Below are positions 39,474-46,245 of a DNA stretch of 63,225 bases, in pieces; position 1 is the first letter of the stretch, and each line of letters opens with the position of its first letter. Position numbers and translations under genes: made by a program. The stretch lies in contig JAFMVD010000034.1 in the NCBI GenBank assembly GCA_025499625.1, positions 1-63,225 of the forward strand, read 5' to 3'. The stretch is from Carboxylicivirga fragile (GTDB taxonomy: Bacteria; Bacteroidota; Bacteroidia; Bacteroidales; Marinilabiliaceae). The notes under the pieces were generated by a model, which worked only from the letters and a program-made list of their open reading frames with translations, had not been told where the DNA came from and made no database searches.

Positions 39474-40493
39474 ATGAGTGTTGTTATTTTGGGTATTGAG
39501 TCGTCGTGTGACGATACTTCAGCATCGGTTTTTCGTGATGAAGTTGTGCTATCAAATTGCGTCGCCAACCAGGACGTTCATCAAGCTTACGGGGGAGTAG
39601 TACCCGAATTAGCTTCGCGTGCCCACCAACAAAATATTATCCCTGTTGTCGAAAAAGCAATTCGTGATGCAAAAGTCTCAAAGGATGAAATTGATGCTGT
39701 GGCTTTTACACGTGGCCCAGGATTAATGGGGTCATTATTGGTAGGAACTTCATTTGCGAAAGGTTTTGCACTTGCCAATAACCTACCTTTAATTGAGGTT
39801 AACCATTTACATGCTCATGTATTAGCACATTTTATTAAGGAGGACAAAGACGATAATAACCAACCAAAATTCCCGTTTTTGTGTCTTTTGGTATCAGGCG
39901 GAAACAGTCAAATTGTGCATGTCAAGAGTCACCTTGATATGGAAATAATTGGTCAAACCATTGATGACGCCGCTGGAGAGGCTTTTGATAAGTGTGCAAA
40001 AGTAATGGGATTGCCATATCCTGGAGGACCGTTAATTGACAAATTAGCTAAAGAAGGTAATCCCGATGCATTTCAATTTAGTAAACCACGAATAGCGGAT
40101 TTCAATTACAGCTTTAGTGGATTAAAAACTTCTTTTCTTTACTTCTTGCGTGATCAACTTAAAGTTAATGCAAATTTCATTGAAGAAAACAAAGCTGACA
40201 TCTGTGCTTCCTTGCAAAAAACCATAATTGATATTCTTATGGATAAATTAATTAAAGCATCGAAAGCCACAAACATAAAGCAAATCACGCTTGCTGGAGG
40301 CGTTTCCGCCAATTCAGGCTTACGAAATCGTGTTGAAGAATTAGCTAAATCAAACAATTGGGTAACCTATGTGCCAAAATTTTCGTACACAACCGACAAT
40401 GCTGCAATGATTGCCATAAACGGTTACTACAAATACTTGAAGAAAGAGTTTGTAAAACAGGACATAGCACCTTTTGCAAGACTTGAGTTTTAA
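39474..40493 (+). CDS. tsaD: tRNA N6-adenosine threonylcarbamoyltransferase
   Basis: 339 aa, the usual length. Contains GIESSCDDTS at the N-terminus, the metal-binding HxxxH in NHLHAHVLAHF, LLVSGGNSQ, DDAAGEAFDK, GGPLIDKLA and the late GGVSANSGLR and TTDNAAMIA motifs. It transfers threonylcarbamoyl to A37 of ANN-decoding tRNAs in the cytosol. Start and motifs are all standard. Confidence 0.95.
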   Translation: MSVVILGIESSCDDTSASVFRDEVVLSNCVANQDVHQAYGGVVPELASRAHQQNIIPVVEKAIRDAKVSKDEIDAVAFTRGPGLMGSLLVGTSFAKGFALANNLPLIEVNHLHAHVLAHFIKEDKDDNNQPKFPFLCLLVSGGNSQIVHVKSHLDMEIIGQTIDDAAGEAFDKCAKVMGLPYPGGPLIDKLAKEGNPDAFQFSKPRIADFNYSFSGLKTSFLYFLRDQLKVNANFIEENKADICASLQKTIIDILMDKLIKASKATNIKQITLAGGVSANSGLRNRVEELAKSNNWVTYVPKFSYTTDNAAMIAINGYYKYLKKEFVKQDIAPFARLEF

Positions 40494-40591: not shown

Positions 40592-40599
40592 TATTTTTG
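40592..40599 (+). promoter_or_regulatory. -7 box of the peptide locus (TATTTTTG)
   Basis: A TAnnTTTG box, 19 bp before the GTG of the PqqD-like gene, in the 125-bp gap after tsaD. TTTG at 40576 may be the -33 part, but the spacing (12 bp) is short. It would drive the compact run of genes to 42439. Confidence 0.45.
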
Positions 40600-40618: not shown

Positions 40619-40918
40619 GTGGGGGAGTTATATTACGAAAAAGCATCGGGATTTGTTGAAAAGCATATTGGAAATGAATTAGTTATTGTTCCATTAGTTG
40701 GAGCAGTAGCACAGATGGATAAAGTATTCTCTCTTAACGAAATTGGTTCTTTCATCTATTTTTTAATTGATGAACCTAAAACAAAAGGTGAGATTTTAGA
40801 TAAAATCTTAACCGATTTTGATGTAACTGAAGAAATTGCTAAAACAGACTTAGATAGTTTTTTGTTAAAAGCTAAGGAAGCGGGAATCGTCAATATCATA
40901 AATGAAGTGACAAGATAA
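40619..40918 (+). CDS. PqqD-like peptide carrier (RiPP recognition element)
   Basis: 99 aa. Acidic, with the PqqD-fold layout: beta strand near 5-25, then the block VFSLNEIGSFIYFLI and a three-helix winged-helix-like part with the motif EIAKTDLDSFLLKAKEAGIV. Such proteins bind the leader of ribosomal peptide precursors and present it to modifying enzymes. It starts at a GTG (no in-frame ATG before residue 32, and length fits). It ends 2 bp before the precursor-like ORF. Fold called by eye, not searched. Confidence 0.75.
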   Translation: MGELYYEKASGFVEKHIGNELVIVPLVGAVAQMDKVFSLNEIGSFIYFLIDEPKTKGEILDKILTDFDVTEEIAKTDLDSFLLKAKEAGIVNIINEVTR

Positions 40919-40920
40919 GA

Positions 40921-41124
40921 ATGAGCGTAAAGAGGAAATACATAAAACCAAGTATTGAGGTTTACAATATAGATCAAGAAATTAGTTTGGTTATGGCTTC
41001 AGTTCCTGTCGATCCGCCATGGGGAGCCGCAGCTCCTGCGGAAGAATCTCTACCAGATTACCCTAATACATTAAAAAGTGATTCTCCTTTTGGAGGAGAC
41101 AAACCGGATTATGATAACATGTAA
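40921..41124 (+). CDS. Small precursor-like peptide (putative RiPP precursor)
   Basis: 67 aa. The first ~27 residues (MSVKRKYIKPSIEVYNIDQ, then EISLVMAS) look like a leader; the rest is Pro/Gly/Asp-rich, with DPPWGAAAPAEES, SDSPFGGDKPDYD and no Cys or Lys-rich tail. Ser and Asp near the end are candidates for modification. It is sandwiched, with gaps of 2 and 9 bp, between the PqqD-like and HprK-like genes, as expected of a precursor. No signal peptide of the usual kind. Core and cleavage sites are inferred. Confidence 0.65.
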   Translation: MSVKRKYIKPSIEVYNIDQEISLVMASVPVDPPWGAAAPAEESLPDYPNTLKSDSPFGGDKPDYDNM

Positions 41125-41133
41125 AGGCCAATA

Positions 41134-42018
41134 GTGAATAAGACTTTAACTTATAATATAGGGGGCATAGGAATACAAGTAAATTTCCTTTGCCCCTTTT
41201 TATTTCCTGACAATAAAGCTGGAAGCCATTTCTTTCAAGATTCATTCCACTCGTGGATATTAAACATTTGCTCTACAAACGACATTAATATTAAAGATTA
41301 CAGACTCACATTTGCTGGGTCTGAAGAGTTTGACATAGAAATACCATATAAATGGAGTCTCTATTCAAGTAGCATTAAAAAGGCAATTGTATTCGAGTTT
41401 GAACAAGATGATTATTTCTCAAAAGGAATAGCAGAAATAAATATTGAAACCAAGACTATAGAACTTAGCTTGGTTCATCACCAGCAATCAGAAAAAAAAA
41501 TAGACCCGTTTTTTCATCCCTTCGGAATATTGCTTTTGCAATACCTTGTCCACCTGAACAGCGGAGTTATTATTCACGCATCGGCTGTTGAGTACAAAAA
41601 CAAAGGTTATCTTTTTTCTGCCATTTCGGGAACAGGTAAGTCAACAATGGCTAATCTCTGGAAAAGTTGTGGAGCTAAAATCATCAATGACGACCGAATC
41701 ATAATATCGCCTCAAAAATCAGAGTATTATTTACACAATACTCCAATGCCGCACTATCAAGATCAAAATAAAAAAGCCCCGCTATACAAAGCCTTCCTTT
41801 TAAAACAAGCAAAGGAAAATTACATTGAACCATTATCACCCATTAAAAGTACAATGGGACTTTTAAGCAACTGCATTCAATACCAATACGATGAAGGTCA
41901 GGTTAAACAACGTTTGAATACACTCGAAAACATCGCCCAAAATTACGGCGTATTTGAACTAGGTTTTAAACCAGATACATCAATAGTATCATTTATTGAA
42001 AACTATTTTGAAACTTGA
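41134..42018 (+). CDS. HprK-like P-loop kinase
   Basis: 294 aa from a GTG (no ATG is available). The N-terminal half is beta-rich. From about 145 the order is typical of HPr-kinase/PEPCK-like enzymes: HASAVEYKNKGYLFSA, Walker A SGTGKST (about 165-171) and INDDRI (about 189-194). No HprK hexamer signature was found. HprK-like proteins near PqqD homologues phosphorylate peptide serines in some lasso-type pathways, the suggested role here. It overlaps the downstream gene by 23 bp. Confidence 0.75.
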   Translation: MNKTLTYNIGGIGIQVNFLCPFLFPDNKAGSHFFQDSFHSWILNICSTNDINIKDYRLTFAGSEEFDIEIPYKWSLYSSSIKKAIVFEFEQDDYFSKGIAEINIETKTIELSLVHHQQSEKKIDPFFHPFGILLLQYLVHLNSGVIIHASAVEYKNKGYLFSAISGTGKSTMANLWKSCGAKIINDDRIIISPQKSEYYLHNTPMPHYQDQNKKAPLYKAFLLKQAKENYIEPLSPIKSTMGLLSNCIQYQYDEGQVKQRLNTLENIAQNYGVFELGFKPDTSIVSFIENYFET

Positions 42019-42439
42019 TAATGTAAAACATATCGTCGAAGAGCTATTGAATGATGGTAAAAGCACTGAGATAACAGCGCAAGGAATTAGCATGTACCCA
42101 CTTCTACAGCCAAATGACAAATTACTGGTAAAGAAGTACGATAAATATAAAAAAGGGGATATCGTTATTTTTGATCGAGGTGATGTTTTTGTTGCACATC
42201 GCGTTATAAGTATTCGGAACGAAAAAGTAATTTGCAAAGGTGATAGCCTGATTAAAGCAGACCCAATGATCAATAAAAAAGAGATACTTGGTAAAATCAC
42301 TGCTAGAACCAGACACACTAAAACTATTACTACTAGGCATTGGAAATTCAGACTAATGACACATATAATGCCTACATTTCATCCTCTTTTAGCATACCCT
42401 TTTATGGTGATGGCAATACTCCATCAAAAATACATCTAA
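41996..42439 (+). CDS. S26 signal-peptidase-like protein with Ser-His motif
   Basis: 147 aa from a TTG that overlaps the kinase gene by 23 bp. It has the nucleophile motif QGISMYPLL (around 30-38), then the GDIVIFDRGD loop and VAHRVISI, where the His replaces the Lys of bacterial SPase I, as in SipW/ER-type peptidases. A weak C-terminal hydrophobic segment (about 125-143) may be an anchor. It is a candidate to remove the leader of the peptide encoded at 40921. Start codon uncertain. Confidence 0.7.
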   Translation: MKTILKLDNVKHIVEELLNDGKSTEITAQGISMYPLLQPNDKLLVKKYDKYKKGDIVIFDRGDVFVAHRVISIRNEKVICKGDSLIKADPMINKKEILGKITARTRHTKTITTRHWKFRLMTHIMPTFHPLLAYPFMVMAILHQKYI

Positions 42440-42524
42440 CACAAGCACATTAAATCTTTCCTGCTTCAATATTAAATTCAATCAGATTATATAGTATTTT
42501 AGTAACTGATTTATGAATTAGCCA

Positions 42525-44312
42525 ATGAACATTCATCCGAAAGAAAGATTCACATATTTAATACAAGCGATAAAACTAGTGTATTACAGTTCGCCAAAGT
42601 GGACTGTAATAAATATACTTACAACAAGCCTAAGAGGCTTTATTCCACTTCTCTTACTATATGTTGTAAAGGAGTTAGTGGATGTTGTTGCACAAACAGT
42701 TGAAACAAATGGATCAAACATAAACCTAACCGAAGTTTATACAACAGTTGCTTTGGCTGGGATTTTCTTTCTTCTGAACGCTGTAAGTGGTTCAATAAAC
42801 GCATTGGTGCGCGAACGCCAGGCACACTTTGTCAACGATCATATTCAATCATTAATACAAGACAAAACAGTTAATATCCCGTATCGTTATTTTGAAGATG
42901 CGAATTATCAAGACATTTTTTACCGTGCCATTAATGAAGCACCCTATCGACCTGGTGCCATTTTTTATAGCTTATTAGGCTTATTACAGAACCTCATTAC
43001 CTTGGGGATCGTAATTATTATTTTAAGTACTTTTCATTGGAGTTTAATTCCTGTTTTATTGCTTGCGGGCGTTCCAATTATCTTATTTCGATTTTATTAC
43101 TCGCGCAAATTGTATGCAATAAAAAAGGAGCAAACTGAAGATGAGCGCAAAATGCATTATTTTAATCGCCTATTAACGGCCAAGGATTTTGCTAAAGAGC
43201 TTCGAATTTTTAATCTTAATGATACCTTTCGCGATAAATATGTTGAAGTACGCGACAGGTTAAGAGCTAAACAATGGCAACTATCGAAAAACAAAACTGC
43301 TTGGGAAAGCATGGTTCAAATTCTTTCCACATCAGTTCTTCTCATTGTTTTTTCCGTTATTATTTTAGGAGCCATCAAAGGAGAAATAAGCAATGGTTCG
43401 ATGGCCATGTATTTCCTAGCCCTACATAGAGGTTATGCTGTTCTTCAGGTTCTATTGAGTAAAATAACCTCCCTTTATGAAGATAATCTGTTTCTTAAAA
43501 ACTTTTTCGAGTTTCAAAAAATAAGCTTACCTAGTGAAGAAAGCACAAAAGCTGACTTTCCATCGCCATTAAACAATGGCATTACTTTTAATGACGTAAG
43601 CTTCAAATACCCAAATACCAAGCGTTGGGTCTTTAAAAACATCAATTTACACATTCCATCAGGAAAAACAATTGCCTTAGTTGGCGAGAATGGTTCTGGT
43701 AAAACAACCTTGGTGAAAATGCTTGCTGGCTTATACCAACCAAGCAATGGAAATATTAAGCTCGATAATGTTGATATAAACAACATCAAGCATGAAGAGC
43801 TAGCGCAGAACATCAGTGTAATTTTTCAGGACTTCATGCTATACAATATGTCGGCATCCGATAATATTCGATTTGGAAATGTAAAACGCCCATTTGAAGC
43901 TGATAATATAATTAAAGCAGCCAATGAAGCTGGCATACACAATGTTTTCAATGGTTTACCCAAAGGGTATGATACAACTTTAGGAACACTTTTTAAAGAT
44001 AGCGAAATGCTTAGCCGCGGCGAATGGCAACGTACAGCCCTTGCTCGCTCATTTTATAACGAAGCCCAATTGGTAATACTTGATGAACCAACGAGCTCGC
44101 TCGACGCCTTCACCGAAGCAAGTTTAATAAAACATTTCAAACAGATTATTCATGGCAGAACGGCCATTATTGTTAGTCATAGATTAACGACGATAAGCAT
44201 GGCCGACATAATAGTGGTATTAAAAGATGACGGCATTGCGGAATACGGCGAATATCAGCACTTAATGCAAACCAAAGGAGAACTATATAGAATGATCGAA
44301 TCCTTAAAATAA
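42525..44312 (+). CDS. ABC exporter (fused TM and ATPase), MsbA/lasso-exporter type
   Basis: 595 aa. Six TM helices in residues ~20-320, with no C39 peptidase domain in front, then the ATPase: Walker A GENGSGKTT near 386-394, Q-loop FQDF, signature LSRGEWQ near 496, Walker B VILDEPTS near 517 and SHR. The LSRGEWQ signature (not LSGGQ) is seen in peptide exporters. It follows the peptidase gene by 85 bp, so it is the probable exporter of the mature peptide. Lipid export is the main alternative. Confidence 0.88.
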   Translation: MNIHPKERFTYLIQAIKLVYYSSPKWTVINILTTSLRGFIPLLLLYVVKELVDVVAQTVETNGSNINLTEVYTTVALAGIFFLLNAVSGSINALVRERQAHFVNDHIQSLIQDKTVNIPYRYFEDANYQDIFYRAINEAPYRPGAIFYSLLGLLQNLITLGIVIIILSTFHWSLIPVLLLAGVPIILFRFYYSRKLYAIKKEQTEDERKMHYFNRLLTAKDFAKELRIFNLNDTFRDKYVEVRDRLRAKQWQLSKNKTAWESMVQILSTSVLLIVFSVIILGAIKGEISNGSMAMYFLALHRGYAVLQVLLSKITSLYEDNLFLKNFFEFQKISLPSEESTKADFPSPLNNGITFNDVSFKYPNTKRWVFKNINLHIPSGKTIALVGENGSGKTTLVKMLAGLYQPSNGNIKLDNVDINNIKHEELAQNISVIFQDFMLYNMSASDNIRFGNVKRPFEADNIIKAANEAGIHNVFNGLPKGYDTTLGTLFKDSEMLSRGEWQRTALARSFYNEAQLVILDEPTSSLDAFTEASLIKHFKQIIHGRTAIIVSHRLTTISMADIIVVLKDDGIAEYGEYQHLMQTKGELYRMIESLK

Positions 44313-44317
44313 ATAAC

Positions 44318-45685
44318 CTATTTAATCAATACTGTTATGCCTCCAAAAAACGCGAAAGAATAAGGCTGGAAACTATAGGCATCGTTACTACTTACCGAGC
44401 CCATATAGTACTTAAAACGAGGCTCAATATTGAAGCGTACTATTTTGGATAAGGGCAATTCCATGCCAATCCCCACCGAACTACTCAGCGCCATTGGCTT
44501 AATATCGGCCGTTTCTCCAATTTCAATTTTCTTACCATCCGAAATCATATAAGCATTATTACCAATTAAGAAATTAGTGCTAACACCTCCTGACAAGGAA
44601 AGATTAACAAAAGATTCTAGTACCTGATATCGCGCCATTAATGGCACCTCCAAATAATCAAGTGTTTGTCGTAAGGCATCTGATTGAGCTAACATTGAAT
44701 TAGTAGTAATAATATTCATTCCTTCATTTTTCAGATCATTCGCAAATTCGATACTCGACCCCTCATTTAAACTTATCGCCCCCATCGAATTACTTAAGTC
44801 AGCAGGCGTCGGCATTACACTTGACATATCTGAATGACCATACATAGGATAATCACTATACAATCCAGCGGTCTGACTAACCTCTTGCCCTAACTGAGCA
44901 AATAACACACCGGTTTCAAAACTCCAACGTGATTGCCCTTCAATCCTGACATTGATGCCGCCTCCAAGAGTAATGATACCACTTTCGGTATTTCTTGATG
45001 ATCCGTGACTATACATCACAGATTGATTAGCACTACCCGATTGCTTTGAATTATAGGCTGATGAAACTGAACCTCCCAAATGCACTCTTAATTGTTTTCT
45101 TTTAGAAGAAGTATTATTAGATGCAAACATTACCTCTTCAAATTCTTTGAATCGACTATGCTTATGAAGAAATTTAGTTGAAATTATAGAGATTGGAAGC
45201 TGAACATCATCTTTACTATCCATTCCTACCCATTGTTCGCGCTTTACTATTTCCTCTTCTTCATTTTCCTGAGTATCAACAATGCTATTAATAACAGTCT
45301 TTGTTGGTTCAGAATTAGTAGAAACAGCAGACACAAGTGCTATCGGGTCACTTTTCTTTCCTTCAACTATCACCTTTTTACTTAGCTTTATTTCTTTGTC
45401 TATACCATTGCTTGTACTCTCCGAATTTAAAACATCACCTGCTGTCAATAATGCCTGATTGTTTTCCAAAGGCGACAATAAATCAAAAACAATAAACAAA
45501 CCTAAAAGAGTAACTATGGATGCTGCAATGCCTACTTGGTGATAAAATATAATTCGCTTTTTCTTTGCAGTAGCACTAAGGTGAGATTCAATACCAGCCC
45601 AAACTGCATCGGAAGGAGCAGAACTTAAATCATTTAGTCCTCCTTTGAATACCTCATCTATTTTATTGCTATTCAAATTCAACAT
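44318..45685 (-). CDS. Anti-sigma-like protein fused to a barrel-like C-terminal region
   Basis: 455 aa. N-terminal ~45 residues are cytosolic (LSSAPSDAVWAGIESHL), then one TM helix (about 48-68), a low-complexity stretch (about 75-195) and a beta-rich C-terminus (about 200-455) reading like an outer-membrane barrel of the PorT type. Because it overlaps an ECF sigma gene by 7 bp, it is probably the cognate anti-sigma factor. Having inner-membrane and outer-membrane-type parts in one chain is odd; the C-terminal part might be a periplasmic sensor instead. Convergent with the ABC exporter gene. Confidence 0.7.
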   Translation of the reverse strand: MLNLNSNKIDEVFKGGLNDLSSAPSDAVWAGIESHLSATAKKKRIIFYHQVGIAASIVTLLGLFIVFDLLSPLENNQALLTAGDVLNSESTSNGIDKEIKLSKKVIVEGKKSDPIALVSAVSTNSEPTKTVINSIVDTQENEEEEIVKREQWVGMDSKDDVQLPISIISTKFLHKHSRFKEFEEVMFASNNTSSKRKQLRVHLGGSVSSAYNSKQSGSANQSVMYSHGSSRNTESGIITLGGGINVRIEGQSRWSFETGVLFAQLGQEVSQTAGLYSDYPMYGHSDMSSVMPTPADLSNSMGAISLNEGSSIEFANDLKNEGMNIITTNSMLAQSDALRQTLDYLEVPLMARYQVLESFVNLSLSGGVSTNFLIGNNAYMISDGKKIEIGETADIKPMALSSSVGIGMELPLSKIVRFNIEPRFKYYMGSVSSNDAYSFQPYSFAFFGGITVLIK

Positions 45686-46245
45686 ACTTCCTGTTTTTTA
45701 CTACTTACTTCCAACTCTATTTTATTTTTCAGCCATTGTTTTGCCCTCGACAGATTGGATTTCGAAGTTCCTATCGAGATACCAATATCTTCAGCAATTT
45801 CCTTATGCGAATAGCCTTCAATAACATACATGTTAAATACTAAGCGATATTGGCTGGGTAATTCCTGAATTAAGCTTAGCAATACCTTCTCGTTTACAAC
45901 TGGCACATAAATATCCGCCTCTTCATTTTCTCTCATTAAAGGAAACTCATCAACCAACACTTCTAACTTTTTCTTACGAAAATGCTCAATTACAGTATTA
46001 ACAATTATTCTACGCACCCAACCTTCGAACGAACCTTTAAATCCAAATAAATGAATCTTAGTAAACACCTTAATAAAACCTTCTTGCAAACAATCCTCAG
46101 CCTCCATGCGATCTTTACAATAGCGCAGACAAACACCCATCATTTTATCAGCATACAACTGATACAATTGATGTTGCGACTTACGTTTGCCTTTTTGGCA
46201 ATTCTTGATTATTTCTTCTATTTGGGTCACAGACAATTGAAACAT
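45679..46245 (-). CDS. ECF-type RNA polymerase sigma factor
   Basis: 188 aa. Region 2 is around residues 35-100 (DRMEAEDCLQEGFIKVF and GWVRRIIVNTVIEHFRKK) and region 4 around 125-180 (LPSQYRLVFNMYVIEGYSHKEIA and the GTSKSNLSRAKQWL helix). It recruits RNA polymerase to promoters of a small regulon, probably envelope-related. The start is the ATG at 46245. The downstream anti-sigma-like gene overlaps it by 7 bp, so the pair is translated together. Confidence 0.9.
   Translation of the reverse strand: MFQLSVTQIEEIIKNCQKGKRKSQHQLYQLYADKMMGVCLRYCKDRMEAEDCLQEGFIKVFTKIHLFGFKGSFEGWVRRIIVNTVIEHFRKKKLEVLVDEFPLMRENEEADIYVPVVNEKVLLSLIQELPSQYRLVFNMYVIEGYSHKEIAEDIGISIGTSKSNLSRAKQWLKNKIELEVSSKKQEVC

Follow-up and report, generated by a model that had tools for sequence, protein, structure and literature searches.

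A 63,225-nt stretch of the Carboxylicivirga fragile genome (contig JAFMVD010000034.1 of assembly GCA_025499625.1; the window, to which coordinates refer unless another contig is named) carries a compact five-gene locus. This locus is probably a Bacteroidota relative of the systems for linear polyphosphorylated peptides (LPPs), a type of ribosomally synthesised and post-translationally modified peptides (RiPPs), making phosphopeptides that would act at the cell surface together with a protein of the type IX secretion system (T9SS). This reading is based on homology, conservation, co-occurrence and gene order. All five open reading frames (ORFs) are present where an initial annotation of the stretch had placed them. 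They form a tight run on one strand, with gaps in order of 2, 9, −23 (an overlap) and 85 nt, and three of the five start at GTG or TTG, as that annotation had also stated. The features of the locus are:

40619–40918, + strand: PqqD-like discrete RiPP recognition element (RRE; putative leader-binding protein), GTG start, assigned by Pfam PqqD
40921–41124, + strand: precursor peptide of 67 aa, ATG start, assigned by its homologue family
40939–41001, + strand: leader motif Tyr7..Pro10..Asp18..Met25-x-Ser27, from residue conservation in 97 precursors
41086–41121, + strand: conserved C-terminal tail of the core, PFGGDKPDYDNM, from PF/NPF in precursors and PFGG-like tails
41134–42018, + strand: HprK/PEPCK-fold kinase, GTG start, from invariant residues, profile and AlphaFold2 model
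41996–42439, + strand: archaeal/ER-type signal-peptidase-like putative leader peptidase (Ser32, His68, Asp83/Asp89), TTG start
42525–44312, + strand: MsbA-like ABC exporter, ATG start, from NCBIfam MsbA_lipidA and Pfam ABC_tran
39474–40493, + strand: tsaD, the upstream neighbour by homology, given for context and outside the pathway

The initial annotation left the class of the locus unassigned, but the enzyme set matches the LPP class described for Bacillota (PMC13381572, Nat Commun 2026). LPP loci encode a discrete RRE (LppB), a kinase (LppK), an exporter (LppD), a nucleotidyltransferase (LppN) and the signal-peptidase-like LppS (Ser29, His68, Asp93). The LPP leader, YxxPxVLxHQxIxFETxxS, is cut after T, with Thr or Ala as the P1 residue (motif Px9Fx[T/A]), and phosphates are carried on core Ser3. 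The window likewise has a discrete RRE, an HprK-like kinase, an archaeal-type Ser-His-Asp signal peptidase and an MsbA-like exporter, together with a YxxPx[I/L] leader and a hydrophobic-x-[S/T] sequence ahead of the putative cut; no macrolactam cyclase lies among the cluster genes. The L-x-M/L-x-[S/T] sequence of the window family fits the I-x-F-x-T of LPPs, with five extra residues in between. Given this enzyme set, the lack of any B2 leader peptidase over cut-off and an invariant Ser/Thr in the precursors, a phosphorylated linear peptide is the best supported product. The earlier suggestion of a phosphorylated linear peptide or a new minimal class thus stands in its first part only, as the class has already been published (PMC13381572). 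Among the literature matches listed, none dealt with Bacteroidota LPPs or linked LPPs to the T9SS. A likely relative in Clostridia lies on the Butyrivibrio fibrisolvens plasmid NZ_CP146964.1 (locus L221, 8572–10595), where a kinase, a YVKPEL precursor, a PqqD and an S24/S26 peptidase stand in a row comparable to that of the window, with nucleotidyltransferase genes close by; unlike the window, it has a Cys-rich core, capsule glycosyltransferase neighbours and an ABC exporter whose annotation is split over two short genes.

On conservation, the 67-aa ORF is a member of a true family of predicted precursors with a shared, ungapped leader. Each of the 13 loci fetched from the genus has a homologue ahead of the kinase gene, and a hidden Markov model (HMM) built from 23 seeds matches 49 of 81 kinase loci (E<1e-5). 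The initial annotation had called for the ORF and its neighbours to be checked in relatives; its fear that the ORF might prove unconserved or lie in a non-peptide context there is contradicted by these counts. A search for precursors alone found them in 61 of the 71 genomes of the family Marinilabiliaceae (E<=1e-5), with at least two copies in 52. Conservation was counted, ungapped from the leader Tyr, over 97 distinct precursors, many of them from close relatives: Tyr and Pro at +3 occur in 97/97, Asp at +11 in 98%, Ile/Val at +14 in 90%, Leu at +16 in 79% and Met/Leu at +18 in 75%. Position +20 is Ser (69%) or Thr (31%) in 97/97 and never Ala or Gly; all HMM seeds carry Ser/Thr here, such that the model leans to these residues without demanding them. 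In the window the residue is Ser27 (nt 40999–41001), the Ser of the VMAS sequence near which the initial annotation expected leader cleavage, and cleavage or phosphorylation at or after it is likely. Ser27 could be either the acceptor or the P1 residue; since Ala never occurs at this position, whereas it is tolerated at P1 of LPPs, a requirement for a hydroxyl is favoured. Beyond the leader the precursors are rich in Pro, Ser, Gly and Asp (PF in 86/97, NPF in 46/97), with PFGG-like tails in many of the Marinilabiliaceae cluster precursors, and the cores of the several precursors are divergent while the leader is common. The precursor profile gave no match to leaders in the PDB, and the precursor modelled alone gave no fold, at low confidence (pLDDT 66, pTM 0.12).

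The window RRE matches Pfam PqqD at 5e-13. A profile of 35 homologues matches LppB (9x8z) at 3e-8, ahead of the lasso RRE TfuB1 (5e-6) and the PQQ protein PqqD (4e-4), and reaches 4e-11 and 1.7e-10 with the lasso RREs TbiB1 and PbaB1 (9x90), respectively. The C. fragile genome has a single PqqD match. In one relative (G047, contig C1) there are two PqqD-precursor-kinase sets (L252 and L253, at 0.38 and 2.2 Mb), both beside giant T9SS-type genes, and despite the two sets there is one peptidase match.

The kinase is barely detected by Pfam (Hpr_kinase_C, 0.03), yet H148, S165, G166, G168, K169, T171, D186 and D187, which include the P-loop, are invariant in 70 kinase sequences, and its profile matches the HPr kinase 1jb1 at 8e-5. 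An AlphaFold2 model made from the 70 sequences (pLDDT 96) gave 33 Foldseek matches in the PDB at E<=1e-3, all of them PEPCK or HPr kinase, with low TM-scores (0.2–0.5) and an rmsd of 8–17 Å that make the domain match a partial one. Distant NCBIfam matches to ScmC (4e-8) and HprK_rel_A (6e-6), and of the PqqD-like protein to ScmD (4e-4), recall the SynChlorMet and HPr-rel-A systems. Membership of either was rejected on score (25.6 vs 200 bits for HprK_rel_A, 32.8 vs 125 bits for ScmC), and unlike SynChlorMet the five window genes include no radical SAM gene.

The peptidase matches Pfam S24 (4e-6) and the archaeal signal peptidase model TIGR02228 (1.3e-11; 44.6 bits vs a cut-off of 51.85), and its profile matches SEC11C at 4e-10. 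G30, S32 and H68 are present in 59/59 sequences, and D83 and D89 in 58/59. It occurs in 68 of the 71 family genomes and nearly always as a single copy, save for three genomes with a second, weak match and one with a split match; some of these genomes have their peptidase and kinase genes at least tens of kb apart. The best NCBIfam match of the exporter is MsbA_lipidA (7e-77; 259 bits vs a cut-off of 602), with Pfam ABC_tran at 4e-33. In 15 of 80 related loci the peptidase forms the N-terminal part of the exporter (742–781 aa; five were read individually). Many of these fused loci are labelled Paludibacter or Porphyromonas and the rest other Bacteroidales or Bacteroidetes. The fusion supports a cut-and-export unit in which cutting is tied to export, and an ABC exporter with such a signal-peptidase domain would parallel the C39 exporters, with a serine-type protease in place of their Cys protease.

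The nucleotidyltransferase of LPPs is absent from the window cluster and has a candidate at another locus. NTP_transf_5 (PF14907) was found in 68 of the 71 family genomes, the C. fragile copy lying at G000:C59:35874–36581, and the kinase, which the initial annotation saw as the only modifying enzyme, is probably not the only one. Because nearly every genome of the family has both NTP_transf_5 and PqqD, the family itself provides no test of linkage. Outside it, NTP_transf_5 is present in 22 of the 25 genomes whose PqqD is strong and of LPP type and in 1 of 16 without a PqqD match (Fisher p 2e-7), while its presence in 15 of 19 genomes with only a weak PqqD indicates that the enzyme accompanies other PqqD systems too. 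At least eight of the strong-PqqD genomes (G082, G096, G104, G154, G181, G646, G744 and G803) have it within 8 kb of PqqD on the cluster's contig. The missing LppN counterpart is in this way resolved at the level of the genome, by a predicted enzyme. The five genes were at first taken to supply all the parts needed, but the locus is not self-contained: the nucleotidyltransferase and a second precursor are encoded on separate contigs of the C. fragile assembly.

The kinase was detected in 94 of 198 genomes searched (E<=1e-3), namely C. fragile itself, 13/13 others of the genus, 55/57 from elsewhere in the family and 25/127 from elsewhere in the order; a profile search of the class at E<=1e-8 detected it in 25 of 395 genomes. 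Named relatives include Carboxylicivirga, Saccharicrinis and other Marinilabiliaceae. A plasmid origin was considered and rejected, the kinase matching two plasmids only, weakly, and the peptidase and PqqD none. A tsaD homologue is present in 48 of 81 compared loci, usually immediately 5' of PqqD. This fixed place near tsaD, and the peptidase-exporter fusions of some relatives, set the system apart from LPPs. It also belongs to another phylum and is near-universal in its family, whereas LPPs are stated in PMC13381572 to be restricted to Bacillota, patchy in occurrence and of unknown role. The LPPs described there stand at capsule loci, unlike the dispersed precursors seen here beside T9SS-type surface proteins.

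This last association was followed through 20 second precursor copies fetched with their neighbours. Nineteen start 5–40 nt 3' of a large gene read in the same direction, including the second precursor of C. fragile (L259, G000:C46), which follows a gene for a 1547-aa protein; at the exception (L278) the giant is about 0.9 kb away on the opposite strand. Of 18 neighbour proteins scanned, 15 gave weak to fair matches (E<=0.01) to TIGR04183, the T9SS sorting domain, and 15 carried Ig-like Big_5. Outside the family, six of 13 precursors (12 loci) lie 12–39 nt 3' of a gene for a T9SS-type protein; PqqD is next in five of the six, and HMM scans of the proteins at two of them (L171 and L173) both confirmed the sorting domain. 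Twenty third-or-later precursors were fetched as a further test, one of which (L280) proved to be the orthologous second-precursor locus: of the 36 genes less than 700 bp away, 7 carried TIGR04183, vs no more than 3 of the 135 other genes at these loci (p 8e-4), an upper bound set by a tally that lists only families of at least three members. Several Marinilabiliaceae have giant T9SS-type proteins (up to 5356 codons) encoded between or beside the kinase and peptidase genes, and G002 has a precursor 101 nt 5' of a giant-protein gene. No precursor was seen in the 354 nt present upstream of the C. fragile giant on contig C122. A profile of the giant proteins (A5) had 42 strong matches in 16 of 17 genomes, 34 of which lie within 50 kb of the kinase or peptidase against about two expected under uniform placement, a count that is partly circular because the profile was built from proteins near the locus and there are many tandem paralogues. 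Beyond the family, A5 reached E<=1e-6 in 9 of 60 genomes but never went below 1e-10; these genomes are spread alike over those with a strong PqqD and the others, giving no co-occurrence signal there. As a separate observation, 15 of the 20 loci have a methyltransferase gene 5' of those for the surface protein and second precursor (in C. fragile at L259 1548–2255, G000:C46), and the best NCBIfam match of this copy is a daptide RiPP methyltransferase (1.3e-7, far under cut-off).

A number of observations count against a surface-acting relative of LPPs. The best NCBIfam models of the peptidase, exporter and kinase were all matched under their curated cut-offs, which marks the locus proteins as distant members. 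No precursor was seen with the HMM in 32 of the 81 kinase loci, some of them cut by contig ends, and 10 of the 71 family genomes lack one at E<=1e-5. The window leader is five residues longer than that of LPPs and is without HQ.I.FET, although YxxP and I/L/V at +5 are kept, and the core Ser3 phosphosite described in PMC13381572 has no counterpart, Tyr+23 being Ser in 6%. On the side of the surface proteins, the neighbour of the second C. fragile precursor falls below the TIGR04183 cut-off (21.5 vs 23 bits), the Pfam T9SS tail is found in only 5 of the 18 neighbours, and most second-precursor loci are orthologous copies of a single locus and hence not independent events. In the genus of the window the giants lie away from the operon (G000:C122; 2.69 Mb in G002), and third-or-later precursors have mixed neighbours (glycyl-tRNA synthetase, TonB receptors, GalE), most without a T9SS domain. 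The RRE profile, finally, ranks TbiB1 and PbaB1 over LppB.

That ranking would suit a lasso locus with a lost or outsourced cyclase, whose phosphorylated product is finished by enzymes elsewhere. Paeninodin-type lasso clusters also resemble the window locus in having an ABC exporter. According to PMC13381572, they share the RRE, the HprK-like kinase and an NTP transferase with it. We nevertheless regard a lasso product as very improbable, chiefly because the lasso B2 peptidase PF13471 is over cut-off in 0/71 family genomes (with two weak sub-cut-off matches), its place being taken by the signal-peptidase-type enzyme; the leader, too, has YxxP instead of WxxP. Lasso cores follow a rule of Gly1 with Glu/Asp at 7–9, and the cores here begin rich in Pro, Asp and Gly with no such arrangement evident by eye. 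No macrolactam cyclase is encoded among the five cluster genes, the rest of the genome not having been searched for one.

A second alternative keeps the peptide inside the cell as a regulatory substrate through which kinase and peptidase sense cell state, as HprK does via HPr, with the exporter a mere neighbour. The near-universal, mostly single-copy machine beside housekeeping tsaD, so unlike the patchy LPPs of Bacilli (PMC13381572), fits such a role, but the peptidase-exporter fusions tie cutting to export and several precursors with divergent cores use one machine, and we consider a purely regulatory peptide improbable. More troublesome is the proposal that closeness to giant T9SS proteins is inherited gene order without function. 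Most second-precursor loci share the same methyltransferase and rlmD-like neighbours, L280 is that locus once more, and the A5 count is compromised as described; on the other hand, the order of T9SS-type protein then precursor at 12–39 nt is seen again outside the family, where the locus is another one, and the precursor-only search found the pairing in further copies above the control rate. Functionless proximity is a possibility that we take seriously, if not the one that we expect to hold.

Around the operon, TAnnTTTG at 40592–40599, starting 27 nt 5' of the PqqD GTG, matches the Bacteroidota −7 consensus; no clear −33 box was evident by eye. Directly 3' of the exporter, genes for an outer-membrane beta-barrel and an extracytoplasmic function (ECF) sigma factor lie on the − strand (44318–46245). 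Of the 81 loci compared, 25 have a homologue of the first and 28 of the second, and their position is kept in many relatives. A scan of the window with Rfam at gathering scores gave no match.

In the favoured LPP-like system, the PqqD-like RRE would bind the Y..P.[IL] leader common to several precursors, and the HprK-like kinase would phosphorylate a Ser/Thr hydroxyl, either Ser27 or a core Ser. Cleavage by the Ser-His-Asp signal-peptidase-like enzyme would follow [M/L]-x-[S/T], which in the window ends at Ser27; the ABC exporter would carry the Pro/Ser/Gly/Asp-rich peptide to the periplasm, and the nucleotidyltransferase encoded elsewhere may add a further group. One machine would thus serve two or more precursors scattered over the genome. 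As the neighbouring proteins are predicted T9SS cargo, the most likely site of action of the mature phosphopeptide is the cell surface, in concert with a large T9SS-sorted protein. A bolder and tentative extension is a general peptide-adhesin system of Bacteroidota, in which one LPP-like machine makes a set of phosphopeptides, many of them encoded with a giant T9SS protein of their own as a dedicated partner; the peptide might then be, for example, a charged docking or anchoring group that helps to place, fold or cross-link the surface protein, and in the extreme case it might be covalently joined at the T9SS C-terminus.

For the biology of these bacteria, the invariant Ser/Thr singles out one residue to mutate. 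That precursor genes repeatedly stand next to genes for type IX surface proteins would be a first hint at the function of the peptides, in a concrete form open to test. The May 2026 description of LPPs (PMC13381572) has them as Bacillota-restricted, patchy and of unknown role; a near-universal Bacteroidota form points to a deeper, possibly housekeeping role.

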